Shown piece by piece: positions 19,782 through 54,800 of a DNA stretch of 64,000 nucleotides. The DNA comes from Aptenodytes patagonicus (Eukaryota; Chordata; Aves; Sphenisciformes; Spheniscidae), in NCBI RefSeq assembly GCF_965638725.1, contig NC_134952.1, positions 66,617,424 to 66,681,423 on the forward strand, in the 5' to 3' direction. Position numbers and translations under genes: made by a program. Every line of letters starts with the position of its first letter. Within the stretch, counting starts at the first letter, position 1. Under the pieces are notes generated by a model, which was given only the letters and a program-made list of their open reading frames with translations, had not been told where the DNA came from and ran no database searches.

Positions 19782-19890
19782 TTGTCTGTTGTGGTCAGAA
19801 AGAGAACTGAGAGCCTAGGAGGCTTGATGGTTCAGTTCTGTCACTGGTGTTCAGGAGATGCAGGTTTAAATCCTTCCTTTTGTGTCTGTT
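19782..19890 (+). repeat. Possible tRNA-derived SINE fragment (copy 2)
   Basis: Same tRNA-like stretch as at 7093-7200, one base different just before the B-box-like GGTTTAAATCC. Carried by the segmental duplication. Family not assigned. Confidence 0.3.
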
Positions 19891-21664: not shown

Positions 21665-21670
21665 TTTATT
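21665..21670 (-). terminator. Poly(A) signal AATAAA, HSD17B11 copy 2
   Basis: AATAAA on the minus strand about 590 bases below the copy-2 stop, conserved in place with copy 1. Confidence 0.5.
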
Positions 21671-28200: not shown

Positions 28201-30323
28201 TGTAAGCAGAGCTCTTGAAACACAGGCCCAGCTGACGCCCCCGAGATACGAAAAGTGGCCCTATGCGTTTCTGTATTCACAGACTGGATGTGAGAAGAGA
28301 AGTGTGCTCCAAAGTGCACAATGTAGAGAGACGCTTCTTGTGAGAACAGCGTTTGACACACACAGAAGCTCCCCTGTGTCATTATTATCAACCCACTAAG
28401 TGAGGGCAGAAGTGACTTTGCTGTAGCCTTGTCCCCAGGTGCCAGAAAGCCATGCCAACGGGGACCCGTGCAGTGAAAAGCCCCAGTTCACAAATGGCCT
28501 GGGACAGCTCAGCACTTGACAGAAGCTGTGCAGGTCCCTGGGGTGGGTGACCGGGCAGCTCCACGCAGCCCCAGCTGCTGCTTAAGGCTGATGGCCCCCA
28601 GGAATGAGGCCTTTGTCAAGGCAGTTGGATTGGGGAATCGTAGAATCATAGAATAGTTTGGGTTGGAAGGGACCTCTGAAGGTCATCTAGTCTAACCCCC
28701 CCGCCGTGGGCAGGGACATCTTCAACTAGATCAGGTTGCTCAGAGCCCCGTCCAACCTGACCTGGAATGTTTCCAGGGATGGGGCATCCACCACCTCTCT
28801 GGGCAACCCGTGCCAGTGTTTCACCACCCTCAGCGTAAAAAATTTCTTCCTTAGATCTAGCCTAAATCTACCCCCCTTTAGTTTAAAGCCATCCCCCCCT
28901 TGTCCTGTCGCAACAGGCCCCGCTAAAAAGTTTGCTGCCATCTTGTTTATAAGCCCCCTTTAAGTACTGAAAGGCTGCACTAAGGTCTCCCCGAAGCCTT
29001 CTCTTCTCTAGGCTGAACTCTCTCAGCCTTTCTTCATAGGAGAGGTGTTCCATCCCCCCGATCTTTTTTGTGACCCTCCTCTGGACCTGCTCCCAACAGG
29101 TCCGTGTCTTTCGAAGCATACTCCTAAAACCTTTGGCATCCTCCACCTCCTTTGGCACTGTGTTTCAGTGCCTGCTTACACCCACCCTTACAACATATTT
29201 CCCAGCACCAAAGCCAGGTCTCGCCCGCTACTAAGTTTATTCCTTTTTCCCCATTCCAGTGGACATGGACAACACTCGACTTGGCAGCAGCCCTTTACGC
29301 ATCGGGAGGCTGGTGCCATGCCTCCTCCCACCCCTCCAGCGTCTGGCCTTAGCCGTAATGGGTAGCATGAACAGACACTGAAAACAGTCAACAATATCCT
29401 CCCTATTTATAAAACCCCTTATGCTAGGCTTGTCTCGGGGTTTTTTTTCTTTGTTTGTTTGTTTGTTTGTGGTGGGCTGCGGGTTTTTTGCAGCTTCAGG
29501 ATGACATGATGAACTCCTCTGCGGTTTCTGGTCCACTGTGTCAGAAACCTTCCCCGTGCACTGCTGCCCAGCCACTCACCCCCTCTGTACAGCCAATCGC
29601 TCCTATGCACAGCACTTTGCCTCGATCCCTACTGAACGACGTTCTGCGTGCTTGTATCTGTCCATCGTCCGCTTGCCAAGGTCTTTTTGCGTTCCAGTCA
29701 ATTTAGCTGCAATAAAGAGTTTGGGCTAGCATAAACGTTTAGCCAGGCGCTGCCTACACGTGTTAACTGTGCCAGAGGGCAGCAGGGCTCACACACAGCT
29801 CAACGCAGTGATGCCCGTCAATATGAGTAGCGAGACATGCCTTCCAGCAGTGTACGCAAAATATGTGAGGCTAGAGAGACAGCGAGCAGAAGGTAAACCT
29901 GCTTCCCTGTAGAAGCAGGTTTCTGGCCTGCGCACGCCGCCTTCTGCCAGCCTAGGCAGCGGTTCCAACAGCAGCTTGCTGACCACTGCATTCCCTCTTG
30001 CAGGTACTCTTTGACGTGCTGTGCATGCCACCCCGCTGATTAGCACTGCGTAACTGTGGGACCCAGACACCTACGTCCTCTGGTGCAAGTCAAGACATGA
30101 ATTGTGCCATTACCTTATTGATGTCCCACAGAACCAGTCTGCTTTGACGCTTGGCGAACTCCAAGGCAGTCGCTCTCCCTACACCATGGCCAGCACCCGT
30201 GATGAGAACAAGCTCTCCGCTGACAGACTTTCTCTTCGCAGGGACAAAAAGCTTCACAAAAGCCTCTAAGTAGGAGTAGACGAGCGTACCCAAGAACAGG
30301 AGAAGATCCAGAAAGGGATTCAT
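22257..30323 (-). CDS. HSD17B11: 17-beta-hydroxysteroid dehydrogenase 11, copy 2
   Basis: Second complete HSD17B11 frame, seven exons: 30323-30114, 27857-27750, 27115-26984, 25879-25773, 24398-24261, 23986-23870 and 22344-22257, totalling 900 nt (299 residues). Exons 1-5 read the same as copy 1: TGAGHGVGR cofactor loop, NNAG, TVASAAG and the YCSSK active site. Differences start within exon 6, where copy 2 has [12 protein letters not shown] and copy 1 has [12 protein letters not shown]. They continue in exon 7 ([17 protein letters not shown] against [17 protein letters not shown]). All splice sites are canonical and no stop interrupts the frame. Its CpG island lies back to back with NUDT9, as in other amniotes, so this copy sits in the ancestral position. 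Expected role: NAD(P)-dependent oxidation of steroid/retinoid alcohols at lipid droplets. Two functional paralogues, or a false assembly duplication, are both possible. Confidence 0.88.
28636..29163 (-). mobile_element. CR1 LINE 3' fragment (copy 2)
   Basis: Same truncated CR1 as at 15663-16190, at the constant 12973 offset and apparently unchanged, in intron 1 of HSD17B11 copy 2. It ends in the inverted ATTCTATGATTCTATG tail. Confidence 0.9.
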
Positions 30324-30362
30324 TGTTTTTCTGGAAGTCCTTTGATTGCCGTACCGAGCTGG

Positions 30363-31150
30363 GCCCTGCAACGTCTGACGGCAGCACAGCGGGCCCGGGG
30401 CGGGGGCGGGAGCGGGGCGGGCCCGGGGCGGGCCCGTGTGTGCGGTGATGCACGGCTCAGCGCCGCTCCCGCGGGGGCCCGCCCGGGCGCGGTGGGGCTG
30501 CGCGGGGGGCGCTCCCCTCCATCGCCGCCAGGGGGCGCCCGCGGCCCGCCCGAGCACGCACCGCTCGTCCTGTCAGTCACAGGCCTCTGCCCCGGCAGCG
30601 ACCACCCCCTCGCCGCCGCCCTCCCCGCGCCGCCCGGCCCGCCCCGGCCGGGCCCCGGGCTCCCCTCGCCGCGCGGGGCTCCGCGAAACGCGGGGACCGC
30701 GATCGCCGAGGCCGGGGCGCGCCCGCGGCGCGAGGAGCGCCGGCCGCCCACGGTCCGACGGGCCGCGCGCCCGGCCACGCCTCCCAGGGCAGCAGCAACC
30801 AATCAGAGAGCGGCGCTTGGGGAGGGGCCTGCCCGTGGGCGGGGAAAAGCCTGTGGGCTGGAGGCGCTCGCGATTGGTGGCGCTCCGCCCAATGAGAGGC
30901 GAGCTTGTAAAGAGGGCGGCGGGGGTGGCGGCGGCGGCCGTTGGGCGGGAGGGGCAGCGCGGCGGAGGCGCGGTGCGGCCGGCGCTCGGGCGTCCCCGGC
31001 GGCTCCCTGCGCGGGGCGGGGGCGGTAGCTCGGAGCGGGCTGCCTCGCCCAGCTGGTCCAGCGCCCGCATCTCTGTCCTGGGCCCCGTCCCAGCCCTGTG
31101 GAGCTGAGGCAGGGGTTGCTCCTGCCGAGGTGGGGTCGTTGGCGGCGTCG
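30363..31150. promoter_or_regulatory. CpG-island bidirectional promoter of HSD17B11 copy 2 and NUDT9
   Basis: CpG-rich island between the start codons of HSD17B11 (30323, minus) and NUDT9 (31151, plus), 827 bases apart. CCAAT boxes lie at 30799-30803 and 30889-30893 and an inverted one at 30873-30877, with several GGGCGG GC boxes and no clear TATA box. This fits a housekeeping divergent promoter. It is shorter than copy 1 by a deletion in a GC repeat near 30718 and by fewer GGC units near 30925-30937. Confidence 0.8.
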
Positions 31151-34100: not shown

Positions 34101-37100
34101 CTTCCCAAATGAATTATGTGTGGAAGAAGCTAGTCAGTAGATTGAAACCTGTGATGGTTTGGGAGGAATTGCTTTTGGGAAAGGAAATACACTTCTGTAG
34201 ACAGATAGCTGCTTCTCTGCTGGTTTTTCAGAGGTGCACATAGGAGATTGGCATTAAGCTAATTTTGAAAGTAGGTGATTATTAGCTTGTAATTCTGATA
34301 AGTCATATCTAATAAAAATTTCTGCTCAATTTTTTTAATTAGCAAAATCTTTTTTAGTTTTATCATTTTTAGTTTTATCAATGGATAACATCCTTCTATG
34401 TTCTCTAACCTTAACAAGAACACTTTTGAAACACTTTGTCTAAATGAAAATCTAGAGAGATTCAATGTTAAATACTTTAGAGTGGCGCACTTATGTCTGC
34501 AGAACTAAATACAGGGAGACTGTCATCAGTAAAGGTTGAGACTTCATAGCAGCCTATAGAAAAGGGAGGGCCTGCAACTTAAGTTCTGGTAAAAACTGCT
34601 CATTGGTCAAATGGGTGTTGCCAATCTGGTGGTTGGCCTTCAAGCTTTTGTGGGGCAGAGGAGTGTGTTGCATTTTATAACTTATCTCTATTGAATTATT
34701 CTTTTCCACACAGTGATAAAGGTTTTTCTCCCAAATTCAATGAGAGAGATGGAGAAGTGGAGAGGAGGAGTCTGAATGGCTTGTATGTGGTTGAAAATGG
34801 GAGGCCCCGGTGAGTGTTTTTTTTTGTTTGCATATTCATTTCACTGTTGTAGTTTCAGAGCTCTTACAGGTCTATCAGTTTTGATACATGGTACCTGCTA
34901 GAACAAAATCAAGATAGTCTCCCCTAGAGACAGGAAAAATGATACCTCAGGGCCAGAGAGTTCTTTCTGAAAGAACGTTGTGGCAGAGAGGCACTAAAAG
35001 GTTAGCCACTACTAACACAACAGAGGGTTGTGGTGATGCTGGAGTTGGAGGAGGTCTAATGCTGTTAATAGTAGGGTCTGTTGAATTAATTGTTTCCACA
35101 GTTTGACCAGGTGTTGGGCTCTGAAGCTTTTGTACTGCTTGTGTGCTATGGCAGAGCGGAAGAGTATTTCCTTCCACTGACAAATCCTGACATAGCACAG
35201 ATGGGTAATCTCACCGAAAATTTTCTTTTCTTTCTGCTGTTTGTACATAATTGAATGCTCTGTGCAGCTATAGTCTTGGAAACTAGATTGCAGATTGCAA
35301 CCTTTCAGACAAGGTTGTGTGCACAATGAGAGTAACACTTGGTCAGGAGTATCTCAGGACACAAGATCTGGGAAATGACAAAGCCATTTTGTATATTTCC
35401 TTTCTCTGTACTATCAAACACAAAAAGAGGTTGATGAAGGAGGAAACCACGCTGTCTCTCTTGCTTTTTAAAGCATATGGTGGCACCGAATGTATGTTGC
35501 TATCCTTCCCTTTGTTGTTATTTAAGCTTCTTTAAAGCTACTTTTTAGATTAATTGGAGCATATTTGGCATGTGGGGAAGTAAATATGTTGAATGTACTG
35601 TTCCACTTCTTTCAGAAATCCATCGGGAAGGACTGGCCTCACAGGCAGAGGTTTGTTAGGGCGCTGGGGACCAAACCATGCTGCTGATCCTGTTGTAACT
35701 AGGTAAGGGACAGGTGACTGAAAGGTGCCCTGCAGTAGAGCAAAAGAACCATGCGTTTTGCTTTTTCTGTGCATCTCTGGACAGGCTATTACTTTTCATG
35801 GGCCTTTTGTGTGTGTTCCTGTATGTGTAAGCCCATTCAGATATGGGTATCTGAATGGAGAGATATATAGACATGTGGAACACTAATTTCGTAATTTTTT
35901 TAGTCTTCATCTCTGGAAAAGAGTAAGGACTCACTGCTAATGACAAGCAATCACTTCTGAAATGCTGAGGAAACAGATTTAAAAAAAAAAAAACAACCCA
36001 GGAAATATAATTCAGTAGAAATACATTATACAAATAATCTTCAGTAACTAATGTAAAAACTGAAAGGATTACATGATGCTTTGATACTGTATACATAATA
36101 TGCCAAAAGGCCTTAGATGAGGCATGTCAAATTGCAGGAATAGGCTTTTTTATCATAATGACTCAACTGCAAAAAAAAAAAGCAGTGTGCCTGCTTTTGC
36201 TCTGTAAGAAATACTGACTTGGCCTAGTATATTATAGGAGGAGGTGGGGTTAGGCTCCTCTTTTTTTTGTCAGTGTATGCTCTGTTTTAATGGTGTTTTT
36301 ACCAGCAGGATCTGTGTGTACATGCTATTTTACACAAATAAAGCATTCAGAAAAGATTGCATAGTTAACAAAGGTGCAGGCTAAGAAGTGCCATGCTGAA
36401 GATAGAACCATTGTGAAAATCATCCTAATGCATTTTACTTCTTCCCCTTTTCAGAAGGCTGCCAATGATACGGAGTTGTCCTTGAAAGTAAAAGAAATAC
36501 TGTTTTTATTTTGTCTTTGCTTAGATAGCTTTTGCTTTAACTATTGGTAGTTCTTCTTAATTCTCTACTGAAGGCAATGGTGGATGTTTGTGGCCTTGTG
36601 CTGGTGCTGGGTGAGCCGTTCGGAGGTGTTGCAGCCTGCATGTACATTCTGTTCTAGCAGAAGGCTTACTTATCCTCTCGTTGTGGATAGGCACAAGTGC
36701 AGCTCAGTGAGCGTTGCAGCTGATGGGATGTGCTGGAGGTAGCTCTCAAAGGAGCTGCTGCTCTCAGCGTGGCTACAGAAATGTGACTCTCGGGCGGTTT
36801 CTGCCCCCTTGGGCGGTTTCTGCCCCCTTGGCTGAGGAAAACACAGTTGGTAGAGGTGTGCGAAAAACTCAAGTGTTTTGCCCTTGGTTGCGATCGATCT
36901 TGCCGGACGGCATCCGTCGGTCCCCCCGTGACTGTTCTTTCTCTGCTTTGTTTGCCCCCGCACAGGTGACAGCACAGGCACCTTGCTGTTCCTCTCCCAG
37001 GCCCTTGTGTCAAGTAGCAGCAAAGCATGTTCTTGTTTGTTGTTTGCTGCAGGTGGAAGAGGGATGGAAGTGGCAATAAAGTTGCTCATCCAGTTACTGG

Positions 37101-39662
37101 CAAAAACATCTTACAGTTCGTAGCTATCAAGAGGAGAGACTGTGGGGAGTGGGCCATTCCAGGGGTAAGAACAAAGCTCCAGAGCCAGTAGACATTTCCC
37201 TGCTGGTAAGGCAACAATGCGATAACTGGCATGTGTGTGATAAAAGCATGTTTTTTTGATGAATGACCTCGTTTTGCAGAGGTGAGGAGAAATGTTCCTT
37301 AAACTAGCTTTGCCCAAGCATCGGCTGGTATGCCTTCTGCTGTTTCTGCATTGCTAGGCAGTATTCATATTTAATTCTGACCATGTCTTTTGCTTAATGC
37401 AGGCACAATTTAATCCATTGGAGGTTTTGAAGGATGTGTGTGCTTGCTCTTTACAACTAAGTGTAAAGTTCCTCCCATGTCCAGAGTATGATGCAGGTGG
37501 ATGTAATATACTAAGAACCAGTCAAAAGGGAGTAAAAACAAGTGGAATCTGAGGGATAGTCACTGTTTTTCTTTCCCCCTCCCCCCGCCTCTAAGGGGAT
37601 GGTGGACCCAGGAGAGAAGATTAGCACTACCCTGAAGCGAGAATTTGAGGAGGAGGCCTTGAACTCCTTGCAGAAATCGCCTGAGGAGAGAGCAGAATTG
37701 GAGAAGCAACTCCACAAGCTGTTCAGCCAGGAACACTTTGTGGTGAGCTCTGTGTCTCTTGTGATAGCCTCTTAAGCTATGCATGTAACTTGCAGCTGTA
37801 TGGAACTTGAAAAAGTGTAGCTGAAATGAAAATAAGCTGTGATGCTCAGGTTGTCATGGTGTAGGAAATGGAAGGGACTATTGAAAACTCTGTAAGGGCA
37901 AATGTATTGGAGGAAAAGAAAAAAATCTTCTTACTGATTTCACCTTGTTTGTTGTGACACTGAGCTTGTTTCAGTTTGTTTTGGGCCTTAGGTGTACAGA
38001 GGATATGTGGACGACCCTCGTAACACTGATAATGCCTGGATGGAGACGGAGGCTGTGAACTATCATGATGAAACTGGTGGGTATCTCCAAGTGTGCTTTT
38101 AGTTGCCTTTTACTCTATATGTTGGTTTGAACTTGGGATGTGTGTTGGGCTGAGATTGGCAATGAAATGGGGGAGCATGCAAGTCAGGTGTAAAATATTG
38201 GACTAAAACCAATGGGTGTGAGGGTCTCTTGTCTCCTAAGATATTCAGCCATGACAGGTAGTTGTCGTTCCCCTTTGGTTTCTGTCAGTCTTGAAATAAG
38301 GAACATACAGACTGCCTGAAGATTGATTATTCATTTGTCAGCTAGTTCTAAGCTATGGACCATGTGCCTTCGTATGGAGATTGAACATTGGACAAGGGTT
38401 CCTTCTTGTCACTGTATTTAACTTGAGTTGGTTTAATTTCCCTTTTTAATGAGTGTGGGGTAGAAGGATAGTCTGTTTCTTTTGTTATTTTTCCTTTAGT
38501 AGCTAGTGTGTGCTTCAGGAGCATTGCCTCTGGCTGCTGGCAGATTTTCACTGCGTTTATTGCTTTGGTGTTGTAATTGCTCTGAGACCTTTTATCCGTT
38601 ACTCTACCAGAGTAATTGTTGGACTTTATTTTACTTCTGTAAATCAGTAGGAATGGGCATACATTGCTAGTTCTTAGATCGATCTATTATCTTGGATTCT
38701 CATCTCTCACCTTTTAAGGTAAATCAGTCTAGTTAGGTGTCTGACTTGTTCAAGTCAGAGACTTCATATGGTGACATTTCCACTGTGTTTTGCGTGGTAG
38801 ATACCAGTGGTGAAGTTTCACATGTCCTTGATTTATCAGCCCCCAGAAACAGTGAAGATACTGTTCCTTTGGCCTCTGTTTCTAATACACTTTTTGTAAT
38901 ACTTTTAAAACCATTTCTTTGGTTGTTGTCTGTGAAGTCCTGGGATTCTTTTTGGAAACAGAGCAAGAAACTTTGGAGAGCAATTCAGAAGTCTTTCTGC
39001 ATCCCTCCTTAAGTACTATTTTTGATTTTGGGGCCTTTAGTAAAATTTTAATTATTCTGGTTTTCCATAAGCATATATAAGTTTCAGAACTCAGTTTGTC
39101 CTGTAGAATAGTACCTGAGAAAGGAAGCAGTCAAATGTTAGGCAAACAAACAAAAGTCAAGGCAGAGGATTGGCTAAACTTGAGGTAGTGAGTGCATGTT
39201 GTCATAATGATTTCTAGTAACTTGTCATGCTGCTGATGGTACCCTAGGAGTGGTGACAAGGAGTTAACAGCACCTCTGCCATGCAGATTTGCCTTAAAAT
39301 AGTCCAAGTATGAAAAAGGTTTCTGGCACAGAATTGATGAGCAACTTAACTGCTTCTCAGAGAAAAAACAATTGAAGGTTGCTGCCTGTGAAGGAGCCAT
39401 GTGGAAGGGCGGAACTGATCAGATGTGAGAAGAAAAAGCAGGAAAGAAGATGCAATAGCATGTCCTAACTCTTGTTTTGTGAACAGGTGAGACAATGGAT
39501 AATTTGCCTCTGGAAGCAGGTGATGATGCTGGAATAGTGAAGTGGGTTGACATCAGTGAGAAGCTCAAGCTGTATGCAAGTCATAGCTACTTCATTAAGC
39601 TTGTGACTGAGAAACGGGGAGCCCACTGGAGTGAGGATCCTGGTCCTGAGTGCTGTGAGTGA
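31151..39662 (+). CDS. NUDT9: ADP-ribose pyrophosphatase NUDT9
   Basis: Mitochondrial Nudix hydrolase splitting ADP-ribose into AMP and ribose 5-phosphate; close relative of the TRPM2 C-terminal domain. Eight exons: 31151-31284, 33010-33246, 34714-34809, 35616-35702, 37053-37164, 37596-37742, 37992-38076 and 39487-39662. These total 1074 nt (357 residues; human 350), and all phases fit across the junctions. The first exon encodes a leader rich in Ala, Arg and Pro ([16 protein letters not shown]), consistent with mitochondrial import. Later motifs are [50 protein letters not shown], the Nudix box around GMVDPGE then REFEEEAL (REF, as in active NUDT9), [19 protein letters not shown] and LEAGDDAG. 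The end is ECCE rather than the human CHAL. The exon-1 start is inferred from the phase-2 donor at 31285 and the lack of a better ATG. A partial copy of exon 5 lies at 18558-18617. Confidence 0.93.
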
Positions 39663-40094
39663 TGTAAACAAGGAACCGACAGACACCAAGGGGAGAATGT
39701 TTTCCAGCTTTGAAACAGATGACGTTGTCCTTTTCAGTGGAAATTCAGTGAAAATTCCATGAAATTCAGCTGGCAAAAACACTTGGCAGTGATAAATAGA
39801 GGCTTTTTCAGAGACTTCAGATTGCTTCTTTTGATTTCTTAGCTAGTGTGAAATGAGATAAATGTGGAGCTGTTACCTTGTTTTGCTTTCTTGTCTTCAT
39901 TATTTGCAGCCATTTCATAATATCTGCAGATTTGCATGTGTCACGACAGCATGGCAACGCTGGGATTCTGGTTGTAGTTCAGAGGCTGTTCGCTTTAGCT
40001 CTGTATTTTTGCACTGATTTCTTGTCAGGAGTATGAATCCTTAAGGGATGTGAGATTTGTAGGATGGTAACCTGAATAATTCTAAGTGCTACAT

Positions 40095-40100
40095 AATAAA
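40095..40100 (+). terminator. Poly(A) signal AATAAA for NUDT9
   Basis: First clear AATAAA downstream of the NUDT9 stop (39660-39662), giving a 3' UTR of about 450 bases. Confidence 0.5.
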
Positions 40101-42491
40101 GTGAAGTTTCTTTTCTGAGTCGTTTCACTTAACATGTCTTTTCAGTGATTTTTCTATTTTGAGAGACTAGTTTTCACATTTAATTGCTTTCTTGTTTACA
40201 GTATGGATGGTATTCACATCTGAATGTTTGACAGTGCCTCTATCTAAAAAGATAACTGTTGGAGGATGTAACTTGATGACTGATTTTTGGGAGCTGGATT
40301 TCGAGGTTCCTCTCTTCCTACTGCTTATGGCAGTACAGCTGTTGGGGAGACTGTGCCATAAATAAGATCATTGGAAAGAGCAGCCTTAAAGTGTAATCTT
40401 GTAAATTGTGGTGGTTTTTTACAGTTTAGGTAATGTGAGTAACTTGCAGTCAGGAGGCTGATGTGGGTCTTCTATGGCATTTATGCTGATAACAAGAGCT
40501 GCACAACAGTTGCTGACATTTCTCCCTGTGTTTTTAATCAAGGGGTAAATGCTGTTAATTGTGTAATAGTGTCAAGAGTTGGTGCCAGTAACGGCTAAAA
40601 GTTGTGGTTGAGACCTGGGGAGGGGATCTTAATGAATTTTGAGCCATGTGTTGAAGTAGGGTGGTGATATGGTCTGGAATTACCTTGTGTAACAGTACTG
40701 TGACATGCTCATGCATTGTTGAGACTGTCGGCCACATCCTACTTAAGTAACGAATGATTTTAGGGCTTGTTCCTTTTCAACACCACCCCTTCCTCCCAGT
40801 TAGCTAATGAAATCTGGAGGACTCATGTGCGTTTATGCGAGGAACCCTGGGAATCTTGTAGAGTTGTTCCTTTCAAAGAAAAAAGTAATGCTAAGCGTTA
40901 CTAATTTTTCCTTCAATCCTTGCTCACCTCCTCCTGCACATTTGATTTCTTCTGTGGTCTTACTAAAACAGCATGAATGCTTTCTGTTGCAGTAGAAGCT
41001 TCCATAGACTTGGTTTATGCAAAATCTTTCTTCAAACTGTAGGTAAGATCTAGTGGTTGCTTAGGCAGAAACAATTTTGATAAATCTGTCCTCAGCATAG
41101 TATGGAGACTGGGTAATATCTGGTAGGGCCAGATCAAGACCTGAGAGAACCTGTGAAACTCAGAATGGACAAAAGGCATAGCCAGCTTCAGGAGTTCCCT
41201 TCCCTTTCTACTCCTGGTTTTTGGAAACAGGATCACTGAAATGACCTGGGTATATTTTTTCTTAAGAAAAGATGAAGACAACTAAGAAATTCTATGCTTA
41301 GCATTTATTCAAGCTTAACAAGCAATCAGACAAGGTTTGAGAGCGCTGTGCACTATAACCCACACTGGCTTCAGAGGTGGGCATGTGACACAGGACTTGC
41401 TTGTTAGTTATCCTCAGTTTCCAGTGCACTGGTGAGACAAAGGGTGGGAATGAGCTGTAGAAAGTTGAAGATTATCTGGAAGTAACAGTAGGAGATGTAG
41501 GAGACATCCATAGTTTTCCAGGTATCTGCAGAGTAAGAAGAGAATGGCAGGTTAGAATTAATAGCAGTTAATTACTGTAATGTGCAATTAATACATTATG
41601 CAGAGCAGGCCCCTAGCAGTGTAGTTAGGTCTTGAAAGCATGACCACAAGAGCAGACCCTTTGCTCATTCAGAGCAGTTCATGGGAGGTGAATGTGCAGC
41701 TCATCATGGCTGAGAACAAGGGTGACTATACTGTGGCATGTCAAAATAGCATGGGGTTTTTTTCTTGGATGTTACTGTTTACATATGAAGCTCTTAACAT
41801 AATGTACAGTACTAAAGATGAAAACATAAGAAAATAATTTAAATTCTGAAAGTACCATACTCAATGAGATAGAAAAACTCCACTGTTTCGATAGCCAGTG
41901 TGTTATTCCTGGAAAGCAAAATTTCTGTAAAGAATCTTTTCAGTCCTCACTGGTCTTGTGTTAAAGTCTTTTTTTGACAGGCTAAGTGGACTTGGCTGTA
42001 TGTTTTTTTGATTGTCATGTTTCCAGGAAAGCTTTCTGGTTAGACAGTTTTCAGTTGGAGTGTGTGATCTTAGACGGTATGCTGTACAGAATGCAATTAC
42101 TTTATGCGTATCTCAGAACCTTACTAATTAGGTCTTGATGCATTCTTGTGTCCTGAAATTTATTGCATAATTACAATATTGAAAGTTTATAAGTAAGCAA
42201 ATGTAGTGGCATTTCTTTTCGTTTGGCAAATCTTCTGGAAAATGGACAACTTCTTTATATGGGTGATGTTAGCTTGTGTATTAATGCAAGTTAGATGTGT
42301 TGGCAAGCGTTATTTTTCAGTCCTATGTGTTGTGTCTCTAACTTATCCTAAACTACTTTTTAAAAATATCTAAGAGATCATCTATCCCCAAGGCTTGGCA
42401 TACCCAGACAAATACTCAAAGAATATCTAAGGAAGAGCAGCAGAATTTTGAGAAAGTTTGTAACCTCTTTTCAAGCTGAAGAAAGTGGTTT
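40101..42491. other. NUDT9 3' flank, no confirmed gene
   Basis: Mostly non-coding by inspection. One possible minus-strand exon at 41285-41525 is listed separately. A plus-strand Ser/Pro-rich open frame at 42548-42817, just beyond this stretch, has no supporting splice sites that I can defend. Confidence 0.5.
41285..41525 (-). other. Possible terminal exon of the Glu-Ser repeat gene
   Basis: On the minus strand a strong acceptor (TTCTTACTCTGCAG at 41526-41539) opens a stretch that runs 220 bases to an AATAAA at 41304-41309. In the phase produced by a weak donor (GTAAAT) near the end of the repeat exon it is open for about 36 codons. In phase 0 it stops after 17. It could be a 3' UTR exon, an alternative C-terminus, or chance. 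Confidence 0.25.
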
Positions 42492-42497
42492 TTTATT
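42492..42497 (-). terminator. Candidate poly(A) signal for the Glu-Ser repeat gene
   Basis: AATAAA on the minus strand about 390 bases below the predicted stop (42888-42890). It allows a simple terminal exon with no further splicing. The context is an A/T run, so chance occurrence is likely enough to keep confidence low. Confidence 0.3.
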
Positions 42498-42887
42498 AAA
42501 AAAAAAAGTTACCCCATAGAATGCATGTCTGCTAATAGGAAAGCAAAGTGGATTACTGTCCTCAAGCTTCAAAGATAAACCACAGTCCCTCCCCCGCTCC
42601 CTTCTATGGTAGTTTGTCATTCAGAAGCAGCTCTCTCAATATCCCTGATGAAGTGCTCCCTGGCCAGCTACAGCTTCCTGCAGTCTTATGTCCCATTGTA
42701 CTACCGGACAGTTCAATTACCTCAGACTTGAGCTTGATAAGCCTGCAGAGCAGCCTTCCAGCCTGGGCATCTAAAGAAGCAACTGACAGCGTTTATGAAC
42801 CTTTTTGGTTGCTGTGAAAAGAAAGTCATCTGTGTTAGTATCTTCCTGTTCAGTACCAAAATCCCCAGTTAAATACAAATGTTAGAA

Positions 42888-43748
42888 CTAGGGAGATTCT
42901 GTTAATTTACAAAGAAAAGACTTAATGTCCCCCATACTGTCCGAAAAGGAGCTTTCACTGCTGCTTTCACTGCTGCTTTCACTGCTGCTTTCACTGCTGC
43001 TTTCACTGCTGCTTTCACTGCTGCTTTCACTGCTGCTTTCACTGCTGCTTTCACTGCTGCTTTCACTGCTGCTTTCACTGCTGCTTTCACTGCTGCTTTC
43101 ACTGCTGCTTTCACTGCTGCTTTCACTGCTGCTTTCACTGCTGCTTTCACTGCTGCTTTCACTGCTGCTTTCACTGCTGCTTTCACTGCTGCTTTCACTG
43201 CTGCTTTCACTGCTGCTTTCACTGCTGCTTTCACTGCTGCTTTCACTGCTGCTTTCCTGTAGAAAAAGAATTAATTTTCTTTTAGATTAAGGTATAATTC
43301 CTCCTGCTTGTATTTCTTTAAAAAAAAAAATCAAGTACTTCATTTTGGTTTTGATTTTTTTTTCTTTTCGTGTTAGAAAGCAAAGATAGTTCTGCAAAGG
43401 GAACTTAATCTTCAATGTCTGTAATACTGTTAGCTGAAATAGCTAATGGAGAAAATATTGCCCCTGTTGTTGGGCTGGGTATAAACTTGTTACTAGTGCT
43501 TACAATTTATTTTTTGCTTTAAAGTTTGAGGGCTCAGTAATAACTTAAGAATGGTAATACATAAATAAGTTTAGGCCTGTAGCAAACAAGTATTTTTAAG
43601 GCTGCTGTATTAGTTTAAAAGCATGTGATTTCCAGTTTACAATGTTAACATTTCCCACATTGAATGCGTGTTTAGTTTCTTCAGTACTTACTGCGTTCGC
43701 AACAGCAAGAACCATGCTCAGAACGCAAGAAAGCAACAGGAATTGCAT
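42888..43748 (-). CDS. Candidate secreted Glu-Ser-Ser-Ser repeat phosphoprotein (SCPP-like)
   Basis: Two coding exons on the minus strand. Exon A (43762-43692) has a pyrimidine-rich acceptor (CAATCTGCTTCACAG), 14 bases of 5' UTR, and 19 codons reading MQFLLLSCVLSMVLAVANA, a textbook signal peptide ending in a cleavable ANA. It then has a strong phase-0 donor, GTAAGT. Exon B (43256-42888) follows a strong acceptor (TTCTTTTTCTACAG). Its first codon, in the required phase 0, is Glu, and 25.5 perfect Glu-Ser-Ser-Ser units follow. A 20-residue unique tail (SFSDSMGDIK then SFLCKLTESP) and a TAG stop end the frame. The precursor is 141 residues and the mature protein 122, very acidic once phosphorylated. 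Each unit offers an S-x-E site for a Golgi FAM20C-type kinase. A signal exon with short 5' UTR and phase-0 intron, position beside SPARCL1 and Ser/acidic content are SCPP hallmarks. The non-coding first exon and promoter are not located. The alternative is a minisatellite with splice-like sites by chance. I recognise no named orthologue. Confidence 0.6.
42951..43256 (-). repeat. Perfect 12-bp tandem repeat, about 25.5 units
   Basis: Unit GAAAGCAGCAGT on the minus strand (CTGCTTTCACTG on plus), 306 bases without an imperfection that I can see. Because 12 is a multiple of three and the unit has no stop, all frames stay open (Ala-Ala-Val-Lys and Leu-Leu-Leu-Ser in others), so openness alone proves nothing. 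The flanking acceptor at 43257-43259 begins the array exactly at a unit start. Perfect units imply recent expansion and probable length polymorphism. Confidence 0.97.
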
Positions 43749-44199
43749 TTTGAGAGAGAGTCCTGTGAAGCAGATTGAAAACAAAGAGTTATAATGTCCT
43801 GGTTTTGGCAAAAGGAAAAACCTGGGGGGAGTATGGCTCTCCTCCGTGTAGAGAGAAAGGAAAATCAGACAGCAGGAGCTTCTTCCTAGTTGAGTATGGC
43901 TTGTGGTGTGACCTTAAGTGACATCTCTGTATCTTACTTGCTCATGTACATGGTCAGGATAAGTCATTATGGAATAAAGCTTGCTATGCTTCTGCTTCCT
44001 GCTGCCTTGTCTGTGCTTTGAGATCTTGTCAGCATTTTACTTCTCCTTGTTTTTTGTCTTTGATTTTACCTCTCCCTAACTTTACTCTTTCTTAACAATG
44101 CTTATGGAAGCCTTTTGCAATTTTTTGTTTTAAGCAACAGGCATAGCAGCAGAGCATTGGTATTCCTCTGAGTAGTTCTTGTCACATGCTCTTTTTTCA

Positions 44200-44415
44200 G
44201 ACTCTCAGAATGGTTGAGGTTGGCAGGGACCTCTGGAGATTTAGTCCATTCCCCAGACACTCTCAAACAAGGTCAGCTAGAGCAAGTTGTCCAGGACTGT
44301 CCAGTCAGGTTTTGAGCATCTCCCAGGATGGAGAATACACAACCTCTCTGGGCAACTTACATCAGTGCTTGACCACTCTCACTGTGGAAGAAAGTTTTTC
44401 CTTCCCATTCACAGT
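44200..44415 (-). mobile_element. Old CR1 LINE 3' fragment
   Basis: Diverged CR1 end read on the minus strand. The plus strand shows TTGGCAGGGACCTCTGGAGA, ACCTCTCTGGGCAAC and a degenerate block corresponding to the ORF2 end. It is more decayed than the CR1 in HSD17B11 intron 1. Confidence 0.75.
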
Positions 44416-46014
44416 CATGCAGTCTACAGCCATACTGCAAATGATTTTTGTTATGAAATTTAGTCCAGGTAACATTAAAGCATCTGTATTACCTTTGGAT
44501 TGCATGTTGAACAGCTGGTCAGTGGATCAGATGAAGTTGGCTGGCTCCAGTGATAGTGTTGTGTGAATGGCTGGTGTCTATATATACAGTTTTGAGTACT
44601 ATGGCTTACGTCAGAAAACTACAAGACATCATGAATCATACCTTCTTAAGACCTTTTGGATGTTTAGTTTACTTCTCAGCTGATAAAGAAGCCATTTTTT
44701 TATGACCCCTACTAATCCTTGGAGGATTGACAGGTTTGGCAATGGAAGTGTGTATGTATTATAAAAGGAATATTTGTTGTGTGTTTTTTCAATATAGATA
44801 TTTTGACTGTAGGGTTCTGCACTTTAGTGATGCTGGAGGAATACTTGGGTGATAATACCTAGAGTACTGAAGTTGCTAACTGAGAGGGAGTGTTACAAAT
44901 TCAAAAATTACCTCCTTTTTCCTGAAGAAATGGGAACTTGTGAATTAAAGTCACTGCTACCTTTTGAGACCAGCTGTATACCGGCAGCATACTTGCAGTT
45001 TGAGAACTGTGCTTTCTGACATCTGACTACGTGCAGGTTAAGCAAAAAGCTATTGAAAGACAAGTCTCTAAGTTTTCAATTACGGTGCTTGCTTGGTCCT
45101 TCTGTTTGGTGATTATTTTAGTAGAAAAGTCTGAACTGGTAAATAAGTTTAAATTAATATATGTATCTGGGGAAAGTCTTGCAGGATGCAATTCAGAAGA
45201 AGTTGGCATTGTGTTGGAACTGTTTGAGACCACTGACATCAACAGCTCATCTCCGTGCTCTCTTCTGGGGACATGTCTGAAGGTGTAAAGCATAATACAT
45301 ACTTGTTGGATCACACATGCAGTTTAGTAAGGATGCGAGGTGAACTGTAAATTTGTTACAAAGCATCCTATTTGCCTGTTGTGGAGGCAGGACTGTTGAG
45401 CCAGAACCCATGGGTGAGGTGGTGGCCACCTGCATTTCCTTCTTTTTGGAGTCTTCCATGTGGCCATGCAGGAGGACTGAAAATGAAACGTAATGCAAAC
45501 ACATCTAGTATCAGTACAGCACTGATAAGGAGATTGATCTCCTTTGAAAAGGAGATTCAGATGGCCAAGTCAGTGAAAAGAGATAAGCCAGCTTGCCTTT
45601 GGCAGCTATATCTTTCTGGTTTGTTAATGTTGGATTAGATCCTTGCTCCTCTTCACGCAGAGGAGGCCCACTTAACTGAGCAATTTCACTAAATTTTGGA
45701 GGAAAGGTTTTGTGAGTTAACTGCTGTTTGGTGCCAGTTGGTGGAAACTAGACAGAGGTGGTGTTGCTCATTTGTGCTATTGACAACATTCTGTCTGTTC
45801 TTAAGCCTAAACTAACAAAATATATCTAAACTCTTTTCTGTTTTTAAGCCTATTTGTGTTGTCTTGAAAGCTCTACTCACAGTGACTCAAAGCCACATTT
45901 AATGGAGGAGGAGCTCATGCTTGCCTTGAGCTGAATGTCCTGCCTCATAGCAGGTGAGACCTAAATGGATGAGAGCAGGCCATTTCTGTTGAATTTATGG
46001 TCACAAGGATTAGT

Positions 46015-46097
46015 GATGTCCCTGCTCAATGCAGGGGGGTTGGACTAGATGACCTTTAAAGGTCCCTTCCAACCCAAACTATTCTATGATTCTATGT
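46015..46097 (+). mobile_element. CR1 LINE 3' terminus
   Basis: About 80 bases of a CR1 3' end: TTGGACTAGATGACCTTTAA, CCCTTCCAACCCAAACTATT and the terminal ATTCTATGATTCTATG. Severely 5'-truncated, well preserved. Confidence 0.9.
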
Positions 46098-48621
46098 AGC
46101 TGATGAGGACACTTGCCCTGACATGTACAGTTCTAGGTCCTGAGGACAGACTTGATCTACAGAGCACTTAGCAGTGGTTGTCCTGGATCAGAGGGAAGGA
46201 TTGTCTGGTCAGGTGTGATGTCTGTAGCAGTGGGTGCTTTGGCTTAGAATATGAGGAGAGAGGAAGTGCAGGTTGATGTTTCTCCTGGAATATTCTGCGT
46301 GTTGTCAGTCTTCCATTAGGGTTGGAAGTTATGGCTGCATCCTGGACTTTGATATCTGTTAATGGACCTATCTAAAAACATCTATCCCCATCTGCTTTTC
46401 TTCTCACTTAACATTGACCTGCTGTTTTAGCTGAAATAGAGGGAAAGTCAGTAAGTCAGATAATTTTAGTCCCATTCATGTTATAACCAGCTGCACGCAG
46501 TAGATAAGGTTGTGCCATGGTTTAAGTGTGAGCAATGGGTGCATTTGTGAGTGTACTCTCTATATGTGCGTATGTATGTGAATATGTGTGTATGTCTGTG
46601 TGCCTCAAAGGGTGCCTGAGTCTTGGTAGGAATATGATTCACCATTTTCTCCCTTGTAGAGAGGGAAAATACTTATGACTAAACAGATGTTTAATTTAGG
46701 TTCATTAAAACTAAATGGAAACAATCAAGTCTACAGAAGGTCAATAAAATCACTAACTTTGTTACCTACTTCACAAAATGAAGAAATAATAAAGATTAAA
46801 ATATTTTAAGCTAGAATATTAACAATATAGTTAAAGTACTGATGGGGAAACTAGCTTTCATTTATCATCCTTACTCTTAATGTTCTTATAATTTGTAGAT
46901 TAAATATTGGTGGTGCTTGCCCCCTCGCGGACTACAAGAGCTCAGGTGAAAATTTTTTTCATACTGTGACTGTAGCATCTACCTATGCATACATTAGCAA
47001 ATGCTCCTTTTCTGTGTCTTGCAGTGGAAAAGTGTAAGTGGCAGCATCACTCAGAATTTCAAAACAGGTGGGATGCTGATCTGCTTCTTAATACATTAGG
47101 TGCTTCATACATCCATGGCTGTAATCATCTTGGAGATGGTCATTGTTTGCCCTGCAGAACTTGGTCTGTTTAAAGGAAGATCTTCCCCATTTGCCCTGAT
47201 AAATTCAATTTCATTGTATCTTTTTCTAGTACTTGGTTTGAGCAGAGCAATGGTGAGTATTAGCCTCAGTAAAGAATAGGTCAATCCCTTGTGAGTTGTC
47301 CTTGTGTGAACTATATTTGTTTTAAGGTGGTTGACTCTTGGCTGTAGAAAGAGCAAATAAGCAATAGGCTGCAGTCAGGCAGAAAAAAATGCTGTCACAA
47401 TTACTTTTTCCCTGAGACATTTGAAGTCCCAGAGAAAGGGTCTTTTTCAAATGGAATTAGCACATAGAATGCTTTTGTACATGCAGTCCAGGTTGATTTA
47501 TATATACGGCTGTGTGATGTTGTAGAATGTGAAGTGGGTGACAAGTCAGGCTTATGGGAGAAACTGTCAGTGAAACTGGTTTTGGTGGGAAATAATCTTT
47601 TGTGTAAGAAGTTCCTGTGTTGAAAATAATCATAGCTTGATTCATTGTCTCTCAGGGCATCAGGCTGGAGTTGGACTAGGATAGCAGCCCTTGCTGTTTC
47701 AAGAGCAAATTATTAAGGGGCAAGTGGACTTCCGCTATATGAGCTACCAAAACAGCATTTCTGAATCCCATTTTCTTTTCATTGGAAAGGTGACATGGTT
47801 CAGGTGAAAGGTGTTTTCTGATCTTCCTTTGTAGGAACAGCATTTGGGGCTGCTTGCTTACAGCAGAGCATGCCTGGAGCGTTTTCAGTGAAGTGCTTGG
47901 CTTAAAATCACAAAGTTAATGGGATTCAGGAATAGTCTCATTCTGTCGTGTTTTTTATGCCTACATTGTGCCTGTCTTCAGGCAAGCAAAAGTTGGGAGA
48001 TGAAAGAAAGTTAGCATTTCTTTCTCAGGAAAAATGGTAGCAGTAATTGGTGCTTCTGTGGGAGGAAGGAAGAATGTGCCTGCTAAGGAGAATAAGGAGG
48101 TGTTGGAGCTGTGATATCCTCTGCTCCTTGTGATGGTGGACCTGTTGCTAATCAGTCTTTTGACATGCATCCACACTTGCCATGCTTATACAATTAGCTC
48201 GTTACACAGTTTGTCAGAAGGAATTCTGCTGTGTGGCATTGGTACTATTACTGTTGCATTTCAAGAGGTGGGGGAAGAAGTATCTGAAAAGCGCTGATTT
48301 TTTCACGTATTTTAGGAATTGTGGTTTAAGGACTGGTGTATATGATCTACAGTCTAGTTTCTTCTCCTCCCTTAAATCTAAAATGAAATTTTCATTGAAC
48401 CATTGCCTTGATACCTTTTCTTTGACGAAGTTCTGGCAAAACCCATATCTCTTGGTAGACTTATTTTATTTGAGGCTTCTATGCAGAATGTTAAACTGAC
48501 AATACAGTAAATAAAGGAAACAAGTCCTATTTCAAGGTAATTTTCTTCAGTCTATGGTAAAATCCACATCTTAATTCTGCTGAAGAGTTTTGTGAACAGC
48601 TCAGTCATCAGGTTAGTACTA

Positions 48622-48627
48622 TTTATT
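48622..48627 (-). terminator. Candidate SPARCL1 poly(A) signal
   Basis: AATAAA on the minus strand about 250 bases below the SPARCL1 stop. A second AATAAA lies at 48465-48470, so alternative ends are possible. Confidence 0.4.
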
Positions 48628-48876
48628 GGTTCAAAGAGATCATGGATACATGCAGGGGAAAACACTGGTTGTTTAGCTAAGAACCACTTGGAGTAGTTAA
48701 ATTTTTCTGCTGTTAATGAATGTAGAACTTTTCTGCACTTGTGTTATTTGATAAGAATGCAGTGAACCTTATGCCACCTTTGTCTTGAAAACTATGAAGC
48801 TGTTAATTACAGAAATAAATGGGATTCACATATTTCACCAGTTTTAGTGCAGCACTGGGATTCTGTTCAGCCAGGC

Positions 48877-51800
48877 TCAGACCAGGAGATTTTCATTTGT
48901 GTCTTCTGCAACAAAGTAGAAAATGTTATTAACGTTTGATGCCAAAGAGACATTTTTATGCTGTATCACTATCAAGAAAGTGGTACACTAAAGTTTCAGA
49001 GGGCTCATGTAGGGGAACACTATCCCTAACAAAAACCAAGTATGGTTGCTGATTCATATTCAGGAGCCATTCATTTAGACCTTTCTCGATAGGTGCTTTC
49101 TTGTTTCTAGTGTTAGGTCTCCTTGATCTATTTGTGAGTCAAGAATCCCTTCCACTCCCCTCTTCACAAATGACTGACCCTAAACCCCTCTTTGGATGAA
49201 CAATCATTGGCAGCAGTACATGTGTATTACGAAAACTACTTGCAGCTTACTTCCACACGTGGTTTGTGACTGGTAAATTGTCATCAGAAGAGCTGGAAAA
49301 ATTTGGGGAAGAGTGAAGGCTCTGCATGTCTGACCTCTGACCAGGAGCAGCATCCACTTAAAATTAGGGAGTTGCTAGTAGGATTTTGAACATGTTCTTC
49401 AGTCCGCATGTTTAGCCAAATGCCTTCTGTCACATAAGGGTTCTGGGATTAACCTGTGCTACTGCTACCCTTGCTTAATGACTGGCAGTATTGTTCAGCT
49501 GTGACTCAGGGCTAGATCAGAAGGTAGATTGCAAAGGAATGCCTTAGGTTGAATGTAGTCGTGTAAATCTCAAATTGCTATCATGACAGCTTCTGTTCAG
49601 CTGCTGCCTAATTCTGGAGACATCAGCACAGTAGTACCTAGCTTTTCACTTTCCTAGAGAAGTCTCGATGTGGATTGAGCTGAACCAAACATATGGCTAG
49701 TCCATTTAGGATTCAGAAACTGTCCCTGCCTCTACCTAAGTCTCTTGATGCATGCAGTCTGGTGGGCACCATCTGAGCATGTGTTGTATCTGACAGATTA
49801 GGTAAAATAGATGGTTTGGCCTGCAACTACAGTGTGATGACAGCATTTGTGTTGTATATAGTAATCTAGAGGTGAGCACAGTTACTTGATCAGTGAGAGA
49901 TCTGTTTTCCCTACTTGGCTTGAGATCTTTAAATGCATTTTCAATCAATATGCTTTGACCACTGATTTAAAAGTACAAGTGTGCTTTACCTTTCCTTTGG
50001 CCCTGAAGAGTAAAATAGTGTTTCTTGAGAGGCAGACATGCAGAACATACAGGTTCAGACACTACACAGGAATGACTTGATATTTAGTACAAACTACCTT
50101 CCAAATTTTTCCTCATGGAAAAGATAACTTTTTCCTATTTTTATGAAACAATTGAGAACCTTGCACCTTTTGCAGTCATCTTGTTACTGTTCCATTTGCC
50201 TCCATGCACAGTAGCCATGAGCTTCTGGCTCCAATTTCTTTCCTGTATGTTGTGGTCTGAGAATGTGCCTAGTCTTGATGGGAACATTTTGTCCTGTACA
50301 TCTGCCTGTTCTTTTAGGTTTACCTTCCTTAATCCCAAAGCAGTGGCACCATTCCTTCAAAGCAATGAGTTTGTCTTGGTCTCCATCGCACTCTTGGAAG
50401 AAACGGGTTATGCAGTGTTCCATGGGAACAAGGGAGGCTCTCAAAGGCGCGAGCTCTGAGTGTGTTAATAATCTGAAAGAAAGAGGAGGTATGTAGAGCT
50501 GTATTTCATTAATAAATCATCAGGATCATCAAAGATGATCTAAGCTGCTAGAAGATGGCAATGGTGGCTTTGACATGCCCCGGTGGATTCTGTTGTGGTG
50601 CTTCTGTAGTGAATCTGTCCCAGGTCATTACAGTGATGTATAATACCTGATAAACTAAAATGTTTTAACTGCTATTTGTTCGCTAACATTTTTTTCTAGA
50701 ACAAGTATTACTGTGACTTGTTCACAACTCATCAGTTGTGGAGTTTTGCCGTTAATCTTCAGGAGATCAAGCTTGCAAAGGTGCTTAGCTATGTTAACTG
50801 AGGGCCTGCAGCCTTGAAACATGGATCTCGCCACCAAGCGTCATGACCAAAAGCCTGAAATTTGAGTCACATTCTCAGAAGCTGGGGGCTTCCTCTGAAC
50901 TGTGACACTGGTGCTGTCTTACTATATCTGCTCCTTAAACTAAGAGACTTCTGTAGTATTAGTTGAAAACTATGGGTGCCTCACTAGTGAATTATTGCTG
51001 ACAGGCCTCTGCCCTTTGTACTTAGCCTGTTGCTCTTAGCTTCAGTAATAACAGGATCTCATGAGCCTTGTTTTCTTCCAGGATCAGGGCATTCGTAGCT
51101 ATTAAGACACTTTAGAGCTTAAGGTGTAATACATGATGATTATGAAAGGCAAGAGGATAGCAGGTTCTGACCCAAGACATGGCTCCAGCAAAACAGTGAG
51201 AGAAGTTCTGCGTTAGAGATGAATGCCTCCTTAGAGGGGAATACTGGCTTCTGTCAGCTGAGGGACTGGTCCTGTATGTAGAGAATCCTTCAAGTGGTTT
51301 AGAAAAGTAAAACAGCCTGAGTTTAAACAGCAAATTGGAACTGAATCTGCAAAGATTTTTCTTTTTACCTGTCAACAGGGTGCTGATCGAGCTGATGAAA
51401 TTGCCAGTGCACAGGATACACATAGATGTGATAATTTTTCTCAAAGTCATGCAGGAGCAGCTCAACTGCATGGTTGCCAGCCACGAGGCGCTTGTTGTTC
51501 TGGTAGATTTTTTTGACCTGAATACAACAGAAATTGATATTTTTTGTTTAGGGATGAAGATCTGTCCTGAAGAGAACTATCCTGCAAGGAGGTGGTTTGG
51601 AGAAATGAAACGATAAAATACTAGCGGGGAAATGGGTTTTAGTGTTTGTGACCATACACAGCATGAAAAGCTTGCCTCAAGTAGTCCAGATGATTTTTGT
51701 TGCTGTCGATGTCGACTTTGGTAGTAACTAGAAAGGAAGTGAAATTCCTGTGGCCTAATCATCAGACTTGGCTAAGCAGGGCAGTAGCCTCAGGTTGGTA

Positions 51801-54800
51801 GAAGATGAAACCAATCACATTTAATGAGCTTCTGTCCTGAGGCAAGCAACTCAGCTTTTGGTATGAAATAAGCCATCTCAGAAATTAGCTAATTCGTACC
51901 ATTTAGTATGAGATGTTCCGGGTAGGTCAATGTCCCTCTTGGTAACTGTGTAAGTAGTCTTTGATGTTGCTCAAGTATATTTTGTATAAACCTGCTGTGA
52001 CCTACTGCATGCATCTCCTACTCCAGAGTTAGAGCAGCCCAGGTCTGGTTTAACTTAAACTATTTTCTAACAGTTATGGCTTTTTAGGCAGTTATGGCAT
52101 CTATATCTTCAAAAACAAACTACTGTCACCAATTCACTTGACATAAATCCTTCTCTAAAAAAAAAAAGGCCTAATGGTAATAAATGCTGACTCCATTTTA
52201 AGCCAATGAAGTGTGATGCTGCAGGTCTACTGGATGGTAGAAAGCAGCTCTTTTCTCTTAAAACTGAGCATCAGACTTGTGTAATTTTATAGCCCTATCA
52301 TCATGGTATAGATGGACAGTGTATGTGGCCGGATTAAAAAGTGCAAATGATGCCCTTAACTGTTGAGTCCATTTTCAGGTACTTCTGTATTGATGGCCAA
52401 GTACAAGGTGTGTCTCAAGAACAGAAGAGGAGCTACTTTTGGTCGGTCCAAGGCAGGGATCCCCTGCCCCCATGAGGGTCCCCTAAACTCTCTGTTGTAA
52501 TTCTGTCTCGAATCCTGCTGTGTGACTGCCTGGTTGCTCAGTCTCATGAGGTTTGAGCGGTTTTCTTCATGGTGATTCCAAGTCCTTCCTTCCTTCCTTT
52601 GAATATCTGTGCATTGTCACCAGACTTTGTCCCTGTCCTGGTTTCGGCAGGGATAGAGTTAATTTCCTTCCTAGTAGCTGGTACAGTGCTGTGTTTTGGA
52701 TTTAGGGTGAGAACAATGTTGATAACACACCAATGTCTTAGTTGCTAGGTAGTGTTTACACTAGTCAAGGACTTTTCAGCTTGGTGCACAAGAAGCTGGG
52801 AGGGGGCACAGCCAGGACAGCTGACCCAAACTGGCCAAAGGGATATTCCATACCATGGGACGTCATGCTCAGTATATAAAGCTGGGGGAAGAAGGAGGAA
52901 GGGGGGGACGTTTGGAGTGATGGCGTTTGTCTTCCCAAGTAACCGTTATGCGTGATGGAGCCCTGCTTTCCTGGAGATGGCTGAACACCTGCCTGCCGAT
53001 GGGAAGTAGTGAATGAATTCCTTGTTTTGCTTTGCTTGCGTGCACGGCTTTTGCTTTACCTATTACATTGTCTTCATCTCAACCCATGAGTTTTTCTCAC
53101 TTTTACCCTTCCGATTCTCTCCCCCATCCCACTGGGGGGGAGTGAGCGAGCGGCTGCATGGTGCTTAGTTGCCGACTGAGATTAAACCACGACAGTCCCC
53201 TACCTTCCTCTTCCAGGTCACTTAACGAAAGCTGAATGGCACAAGTCCTTTCAACTTGTGGGACTCCACAGGTGAGTTCTTGGCTGGCTGTTCCCTCTTA
53301 TTCTGTCTTTTAATTAGTTATCCATATCCAGACCTTCCGTCTTATGCTATGGCTGCTTAGTTTTCTCAAGTCCTTTGGAAAATGGCATTGACTGCATGAA
53401 CTGGGTCATCCTTATCTACGTATTAGTTGATCTTTCCAAGAGATTTGTCACAAAGCAGTTCCTTCAAAGCTCTTTTGTGTCTTCTCAAGCAAACGATGTT
53501 TATCTAGGTGTGTACTAATTCTGACTTTTCTGCCTCTTGCCTGTAGACACTGACTTCAAAGTAATATACTTGGCTTACATTTGCTTGGACAAAAGGAATA
53601 CTCATAGCAGAAATGTCTCAGCTTAAATGAGTGCGAGGGGACATGTAAGTGTATTTTGCAACTTGTGAATCTAACTGAGTCTAAATTGCCTTAACCAAAA
53701 AGGGAATGCTCATAGGAAATGGGAGAACTTGTAAGATGTGAATCACTTTTTTTTCACATGGTTAGTCTGGCTCTAACAATGTGACTGTATGGTCTTACTT
53801 GAAAAGAATTGCTGACCTTACTCCTTTGCTTTTCAGTTAGAAATCCAGAAGTATCCAGATCACGTTCGTAATATTGCATAAGGATGTTTTTGAGCCAGTC
53901 TCGCATCCGGAGGGGGAACTGATCCACTTCATAATCAGTACAGTGGGGAATGTCTGTGCCAAACAGGAAAGCTTTTGTTAACAAGTTATCTGTTAAGTCC
54001 CCATTCGAGCATTTCTGAGCCAAGTTAGATTTGATTCTCACTAGCAAACTTCCAGTTAGGCTTAAAATTGATGGAACTGTTAATATATAAAATTAGGAGT
54101 GCAACTAATGGGTTCAATTATAAATCTACCATTCTTTGGTGCACGTTTAACCAGTTGTGCAAGACACAACCTTTATCTGTGCAGCTTCTGAGCACAGTTG
54201 TGCAGTGAAACTGTTACCACTCAGTTGCATGAAAACAGAGTTCTCGGCAGCAAAGGAATATTCTGGCTAAGAGTGCACTTTCCTCCCAGGGTATGCAGCA
54301 ATTGAAGGGCTTGGAAATCAGTTCTGGCTTTTAGATCCTGACTTCTGCATTTGGCATCAAAGTAGTTTTTTATGGTGGTTTTTTTTTGGACTTGACATTT
54401 TCATTTATTAACTGGCTGTAAATACTGGTTTTCTGGTCAAGGTGTTAAAAAAATCTTCAGATGCTATAGCAATGGGAGCATGTAAGACAGTGCAGGGGGA
54501 AGACAGGGTTGACAACAAATTGGTGTAAGCACAGGAGGGATGTCTTTAGGATTCAGATGCTTAATACCTTTAATTATAGAAAAAGTGACTTTTTAGACAT
54601 GCTTAGGGTTTGAAGGTCTTAATTAGCAGATAATTGATGCAGAAGGGGGAGAGCACAGCATGAAAGCAGATAACTTAAGGCTAGCTGGTGGTTAAGGCTA
54701 CTGGCTCTTTATACCTAGGTGAATTCTTCATAGAAAAACAAGCCTTACATTTGCAGGAGCCCATATAGTCTAGGTGCAGCTGGCGTCCCATTTTTGTCCC

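Follow-up and report, generated by a model that had tools for sequence, protein, structure and literature searches.

Does the tandem array that lies between NUDT9 and SPARCL1 in the penguin Aptenodytes patagonicus belong to a gene, or is it a minisatellite beside chance look-alikes of splice sites? Our analysis of the 64-kb stretch of DNA around it (64,000 nucleotides, hereafter the window) leads us to favor, with reasonable if incomplete confidence, an unannotated gene between these two neighbors, with two coding exons and probably an extra first exon, that would encode a secreted phosphoprotein. This judgment covers descent from SPARCL1 as well as the case of a secreted Ser/Glu-repeat gene of other origin. 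The anatomy of this predicted gene, here called the ESSS gene after its repeat unit, is well supported as a prediction and is laid out below in the direction of transcription.

44581..44586, minus strand: predicted promoter TATA box (TATATA), the sole TATA[AT]A match on the minus strand of the searched stretch 45000-43700
44493..44555, minus strand: tentative exon 1, donor CCAAAG/GTAATA, with one ATG at 44505-44503; its start (44555) is assumed to lie ~30 nt past the TATA box
43763..44492, minus strand: predicted intron 1, 730 nt
43692..43762, minus strand: exon 2, 14 nt followed by the ATG at 43748 and a predicted 19-codon signal peptide, MQFLLLSCVLSMVLAVANA; phase-0 donor GCA/GTAAGT
43257..43691, minus strand: intron 2, 435 nt, GTAAGT...TTTTCTACAG
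42888..43256, minus strand: coding part of exon 3, (ESSS)25-ES, unique tail and TAG, with the stop codon at 42890-42888
42951..43256, minus strand: array, 25.5 perfect copies of GAAAGCAGCAGT, read as Glu-Ser-Ser-Ser
42891..42950, minus strand: unique C-terminal tail, 20 residues, SFSDSMGDIKSFLCKLTESP
42492..42497, minus strand: candidate poly(A) signal, the first AATAAA downstream of the stop and ~390 nt past it

A preliminary description of this DNA had proposed a hidden two-exon gene at this place, and every element that it named, including the signal exon, the phase-0 GTAAGT, the 435-nt intron, the 25.5 units, the tail and the stop, was recovered to the exact base. The acceptor of exon 3 reads TTCTACAG/GAAAGC at 43256 (minus strand), and a second AATAAA past the stop begins at 42164 (minus strand). 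The predicted mature chain has 122 residues, comprising 81 Ser, 27 Glu, 2 Asp, 2 Lys and others, with 25 S-x-E sites along its length. Intron 1 contains, at about 44420-44160, what we take to be an old CR1 3' end.

The neighbors and their strands also agree with that description, with NUDT9 recognized by one NUDIX match together with exons placed by eye and SPARCL1 by tblastn. NUDT9, on the plus strand, carries its NUDIX match at 37560-37772 (22.3 bits vs. a cut-off of 21.1), two other exons placed by eye, the last among them, being without one, and ends near 39.66 kb. SPARCL1 shares the minus strand with the ESSS gene; a tblastn search with the Aptenodytes forsteri protein puts its first residues at 61543. 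Good matches go on as far as 50516-50325, and the 3' end lies near 48.9 kb, where the last 16 residues match weakly (48927-48880, E 2.1). Among 98 matches, the large SPARCL1 exon comes closest to that of A. forsteri (97% identity), with other named birds reaching at most 87% and one further fragment 92%, which points to a penguin, though probably not A. forsteri itself. In Pfam, three exons of SPARCL1 have matches, to the FOLN, Kazal and SPARC calcium-binding domains.

Elsewhere in the window, short-chain dehydrogenase matches at 13963-14223 (37.2 bits) and 17120-17599 (21.2 bits, under the cut-off) mark a gene that is presumably HSD17B11. The region of this gene is duplicated in tandem (6660-18097 and 19349-31053), with 7.3 kb at 99.2% identity and other blocks at 81.1-99.1%, a mixture suggestive of an old duplication that later underwent gene conversion. 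Between the two copies, 18115-19247 holds a remnant of the NUDT9 region (matching 36593-37112, 95%) as well as remnants of the 3' part of SPARCL1 (matching 52470-52633, 53196-53415 and 53766-53896, 86-95%). It may be that the ancestral duplication extended into SPARCL1 and so took in the ESSS locus, which would later have been lost from that copy. An 80-bp repeat, which we presume to be a CR1-type interspersed element, occurs at 15668-15747, 28641-28720 and 46015-46094, with the third copy in inverted orientation at 91% identity.

How easily could such an arrangement arise by chance? Splice sites were scored with position weights. On this scale the acceptors of exon 2 (43762, score 6.73) and exon 3 (43256, score 6.78) are the top two among six scoring above 4 on the minus strand between 45000 and 42000, and a score of at least 6.73 is found at 0.0005 per base on the minus strand of the whole window. 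The array starts exactly at one of these two best acceptors, in the frame that gives ESSS. The donors of exon 1 and exon 2 are modest. That of exon 2 scores 1.97, is good on the intron side only and is outscored by six of the 10 other donors listed between 45000 and 42000; this score is reached by 4.8% of minus-strand GTs, and a full-consensus donor would score about 8.6 by our own arithmetic on these weights.

We then consider the signal exon, here taken as an acceptor followed at most 80 nt later by an ATG, with 15-30 codons that include a hydrophobic stretch and run up to a phase-0 donor. When the 64-kb window was scanned for it on either strand, two sites came up, the SPARCL1 signal exon (61607) and exon 2 of the ESSS gene (43762), with one extra site when any phase was allowed (44415-44468, plus strand, phase 1), these being post hoc figures in that donor thresholds of 4 and 5 gave zero sites and the threshold was cut to 1.9 to admit the candidate. 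Second-order random sequence of local composition gave 30 phase-0 signal exons per 250 x 64 kb on a single strand, i.e. 0.0019 per kb. Sixty first-order random windows, taken on both strands and with any phase allowed, gave 0.28 signal exons per window; none of the phase-0 sites reached an acceptor of 6.5 together with a hydrophobicity of 2.9. It is hard to see signal exon, strand, phase and array edge falling together by accident. If the locus were a non-coding minisatellite and the splice sites and hydrophobic ORF next to it were spurious, a phase-0 signal-like exon would have had to fall within 1 kb (~0.002) and an acceptor this good at the edge of the array (~0.0005 per base), for joint odds on the order of 1e-6 to 1e-5 by our arithmetic, with a few bases' slack and independence assumed. 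We regard this explanation as quite improbable, even though short-unit tandem arrays are commonplace, the array unit is without a stop in five of six frames, the scan thresholds were chosen once the candidate was known and both donors have modest scores.

If the locus is a gene, to which family might it belong? SPARCL1 is regarded as the evolutionary source of bone and tooth mineralization proteins. From its sequence, the ESSS gene is plausibly a new, acidic SCPP gene on the NUDT9 side of SPARCL1, as exemplified by three features: 1) its position in the SCPP cluster, with SPARCL1 running from 61543 to about 48880 and exon 1 of the ESSS gene lying at 44.5 kb, both on the minus strand; 2) a predicted signal peptide on an exon of its own, followed by a phase-0 intron; 3) an acidic predicted chain with S-x-E motifs. 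In the literature, here drawn on in excerpt for all papers cited by PMC number, nearly all SCPP introns are given as phase 0, ODAPH being excluded from the family because its introns are phase 1 (PMC6732285; PMC7807025); ancestral SCPP clusters are placed around sparcl1 (PMC13367325); and a figure legend in a review of the avian eggshell draws NUDT9 and SPARCL1 as genes flanking the SIBLING genes (PMC8144736). The proposal of an SCPP-type phosphoprotein in the preliminary description is partly upheld, at the level of sequence prediction, by the SPARCL1 neighborhood, the phase-0 signal exon and the S-x-E content. The resemblance of exon 2 to the SPARCL1 signal exon does not rise above background, since its score of 19 is reached by 120 out of 1000 pieces drawn at random from the minus strand.

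With respect to the 5' end, the signal peptide that begins at the exon-2 ATG contains no basic residue. When exon 1 is spliced to exon 2, the exon-1 ATG is open and in frame, yielding a predicted precursor of 150 residues, MQSKGLSLK-MQFLLLSCVLSMVLAVANA..., in which MQSKGLSLK adds a basic n-region to the signal peptide. This ATG lends the gene model mild support, since an in-frame open ATG is expected in 15% of random 63-nt exons. Among the donors listed on the minus strand between 45000 and 42000, five others located 5' of exon 2 score higher than that of exon 1 (1.74); the choice of this donor therefore rests on the TATA box, and the assignment of exon 1 from these signals is uncertain. Intron 1 would be phase 1 with the exon-1 ATG and would lie in the UTR with the exon-2 ATG, while intron 2 is phase 0; because SCPP introns are usually phase 0, a phase-1 intron 1 is the cost of the exon-1 start. 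Of the gene model described earlier, both coding exons are present, and exon 1 is a proposal that we add to it. We also weighed a relation to AMBN by way of two in-frame starts and gave it up, because the exon-1 start of AMBN is stated to have arisen in the placental ancestor (PMC6732285).

Searches for relatives returned little. With the full predicted protein as the query, two matches had an E below 0.001 among 7984 scored candidates, a capped set, both of low complexity, one to a fish osteocalcin-like protein in which SSSE/SSSD runs occur and one to another protein. After masking of most of the repeat, zero proteins of 78-247 residues had three 5-residue words in common with the query. The protein collection searched is the one that yielded the 98 SPARCL1 matches, of which the named ones come from birds of many orders. 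An annotated relative was thus undetected, and orthologues that evolve fast or have another length would be missed. A Pfam search of the predicted protein gave only Presenilin over the repeat (E 0.074, 12.2 bits vs. a cut-off of 34.3), which we took as noise. The titles and abstract openings listed report no SCPP gene in the NUDT9-SPARCL1 interval, a scope that takes in few subscription papers, so that a description could exist; likewise, where they treat SCPP genes, the excerpts of PMC8144736, PMC2803795 and PMC2542379 mention none on the NUDT9 side. The suggestion that the gene is possibly undescribed fits with the zero relatives in the full and repeat-masked searches.

Within our preferred explanation, these results also touch on the origin of the gene. 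It is possible, if rather doubtful, that a secreted Ser/Glu-repeat gene arose de novo beside SPARCL1 and came to resemble dentin phosphoprotein by convergence; the signal exon is without sequence similarity to that of SPARCL1, homologues are absent from the protein searches and similar Ser/Glu-Asp stretches occur in another family, that of the fish osteocalcin-like protein. On the other hand, adjacency to SPARCL1, the shared strand and a phase-0 signal exon are what SCPP descent predicts, and the missing similarity is weak evidence given that signal exons probably diverge fast.

As for the array, 306 of its 306 bases are identical to the GAAAGCAGCAGT repeat, with zero mismatches, and its TRF score of 612 stands against 80 for the runner-up among 13 entries for the whole window. 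Two of the three minus-strand frames are open across it, and the third has a stop in each unit. On the plus strand, each of the three frames is likewise open across the array (LLLS, TAAF, CCFH; 42951-43256), resulting in long spurious ORFs in ORF lists; coding ORFs on this strand were rejected, being open merely because the unit has no stop in those frames. A structural RNA was also considered: the array RNA folds worse than 100 of 100 shuffles (z +4.7), and a hairpin role is unlikely by this modeling. An Rfam search of 39600-49000 found zero families at gathering score.

Because the repeats are perfect, the array must be recent or homogenized, and selection at the level of codons or protein is unreadable from it. 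Its copy number is probably polymorphic, or may even be an assembly estimate; the number of repeats would change by slippage with composition retained. Such perfection, as a sign of recent expansion or homogenization, would also suit a decaying or very young gene, in which a once-working SCPP-type signal exon and last exon, the latter overrun by a minisatellite, had lost selection. This reading agrees with the zero relatives in the protein searches, and SCPP relics are to be expected in birds, considering that chicken is reported to be without working AMEL, AMBN, ENAM and DSPP (PMC2542379; for DSPP, also PMC2803795), the last in surveys of the SPARCL1-PKD2 side, as far as the excerpts go. We nevertheless deem it unlikely, as the frame of the ESSS locus is unbroken through the signal peptide, the splice-site dinucleotides, the array, the tail and the exon-1 ATG.

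Returning to a working gene, what might its product do? FAM20C phosphorylates serine in S-x-E. From its predicted sequence the ESSS chain would be secreted, and in each unit FAM20C would act on the middle Ser first and on the adjacent serines next, via S-x-pS. The product may be a disordered, very highly charged polyanion that binds many calcium ions. Such a polyanion could control mineral in bone, cartilage or eggshell by steering or inhibiting its growth, as dentin phosphoprotein does; alternatively, it might hold calcium phosphate soluble in the manner of the same protein. More tentatively still, and with less conviction than for the gene itself, we postulate that toothless birds, which lost DSPP, have a separate SCPP gene across SPARCL1 from the place of DSPP, the mature product of which is a near-pure (ESSS)n polyphosphoprotein that stands in for dentin phosphoprotein in bone or eggshell. 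With a repeat exon that lacks a start codon and looks like a minisatellite, this gene would have gone unnoticed. If expressed, the gene would be an acidic SCPP gene where the literature found describes none, would provide a natural, near-pure FAM20C substrate polymer for mineralization work and would test whether birds replaced the lost dentin phosphoprotein. The locus also illustrates how genes with a repeat exon can escape annotation.

Compared with known systems, the Lampris incognitus osteocalcin-like protein shares with the predicted ESSS protein long SSSE/SSSD runs and an N-terminal signal-like stretch, under a name that is bone Gla-protein-like, but it belongs to another family (Pfam PF25890, precomputed) and the similarity looks compositional only. 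SPARCL1, in the same window, has a signal exon of the same type and phase 0; unlike SPARCL1, the predicted ESSS protein is without the follistatin-like, Kazal and calcium-binding domains encoded by the SPARCL1 exons. Dentin phosphoprotein, the repeat domain of DSPP, is similar in its long one-exon Ser/acidic tandem repeat, unique C-terminal end and slippage-prone copy number (PMC2803795), and differs in having SSD with Asp in place of ESSS with Glu. The BMP1 cleavage motif MQGDD of DSPP is absent from the ESSS protein by eye, and the locus lies on the other side of SPARCL1 rather than between SPARCL1 and the other SIBLING genes, features that set it apart from DSPP. In contrast to the SIBLING genes, the ESSS gene is found on the NUDT9 side and not on the DMP1-PKD2 side of SPARCL1, has the direction of SPARCL1 and would encode its mature chain on a single exon; the integrin-binding RGD, a SIBLING hallmark, is absent by eye from the predicted protein, and it has also been lost in many DSPP sequences (PMC2803795). 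What the predicted gene does have in common with the acidic SCPP or SIBLING genes (DSPP, DMP1, IBSP, MEPE/OC116 and SPP1) is a place near SPARCL1, a phase-0 signal exon and a Ser/acidic chain with S-x-E.
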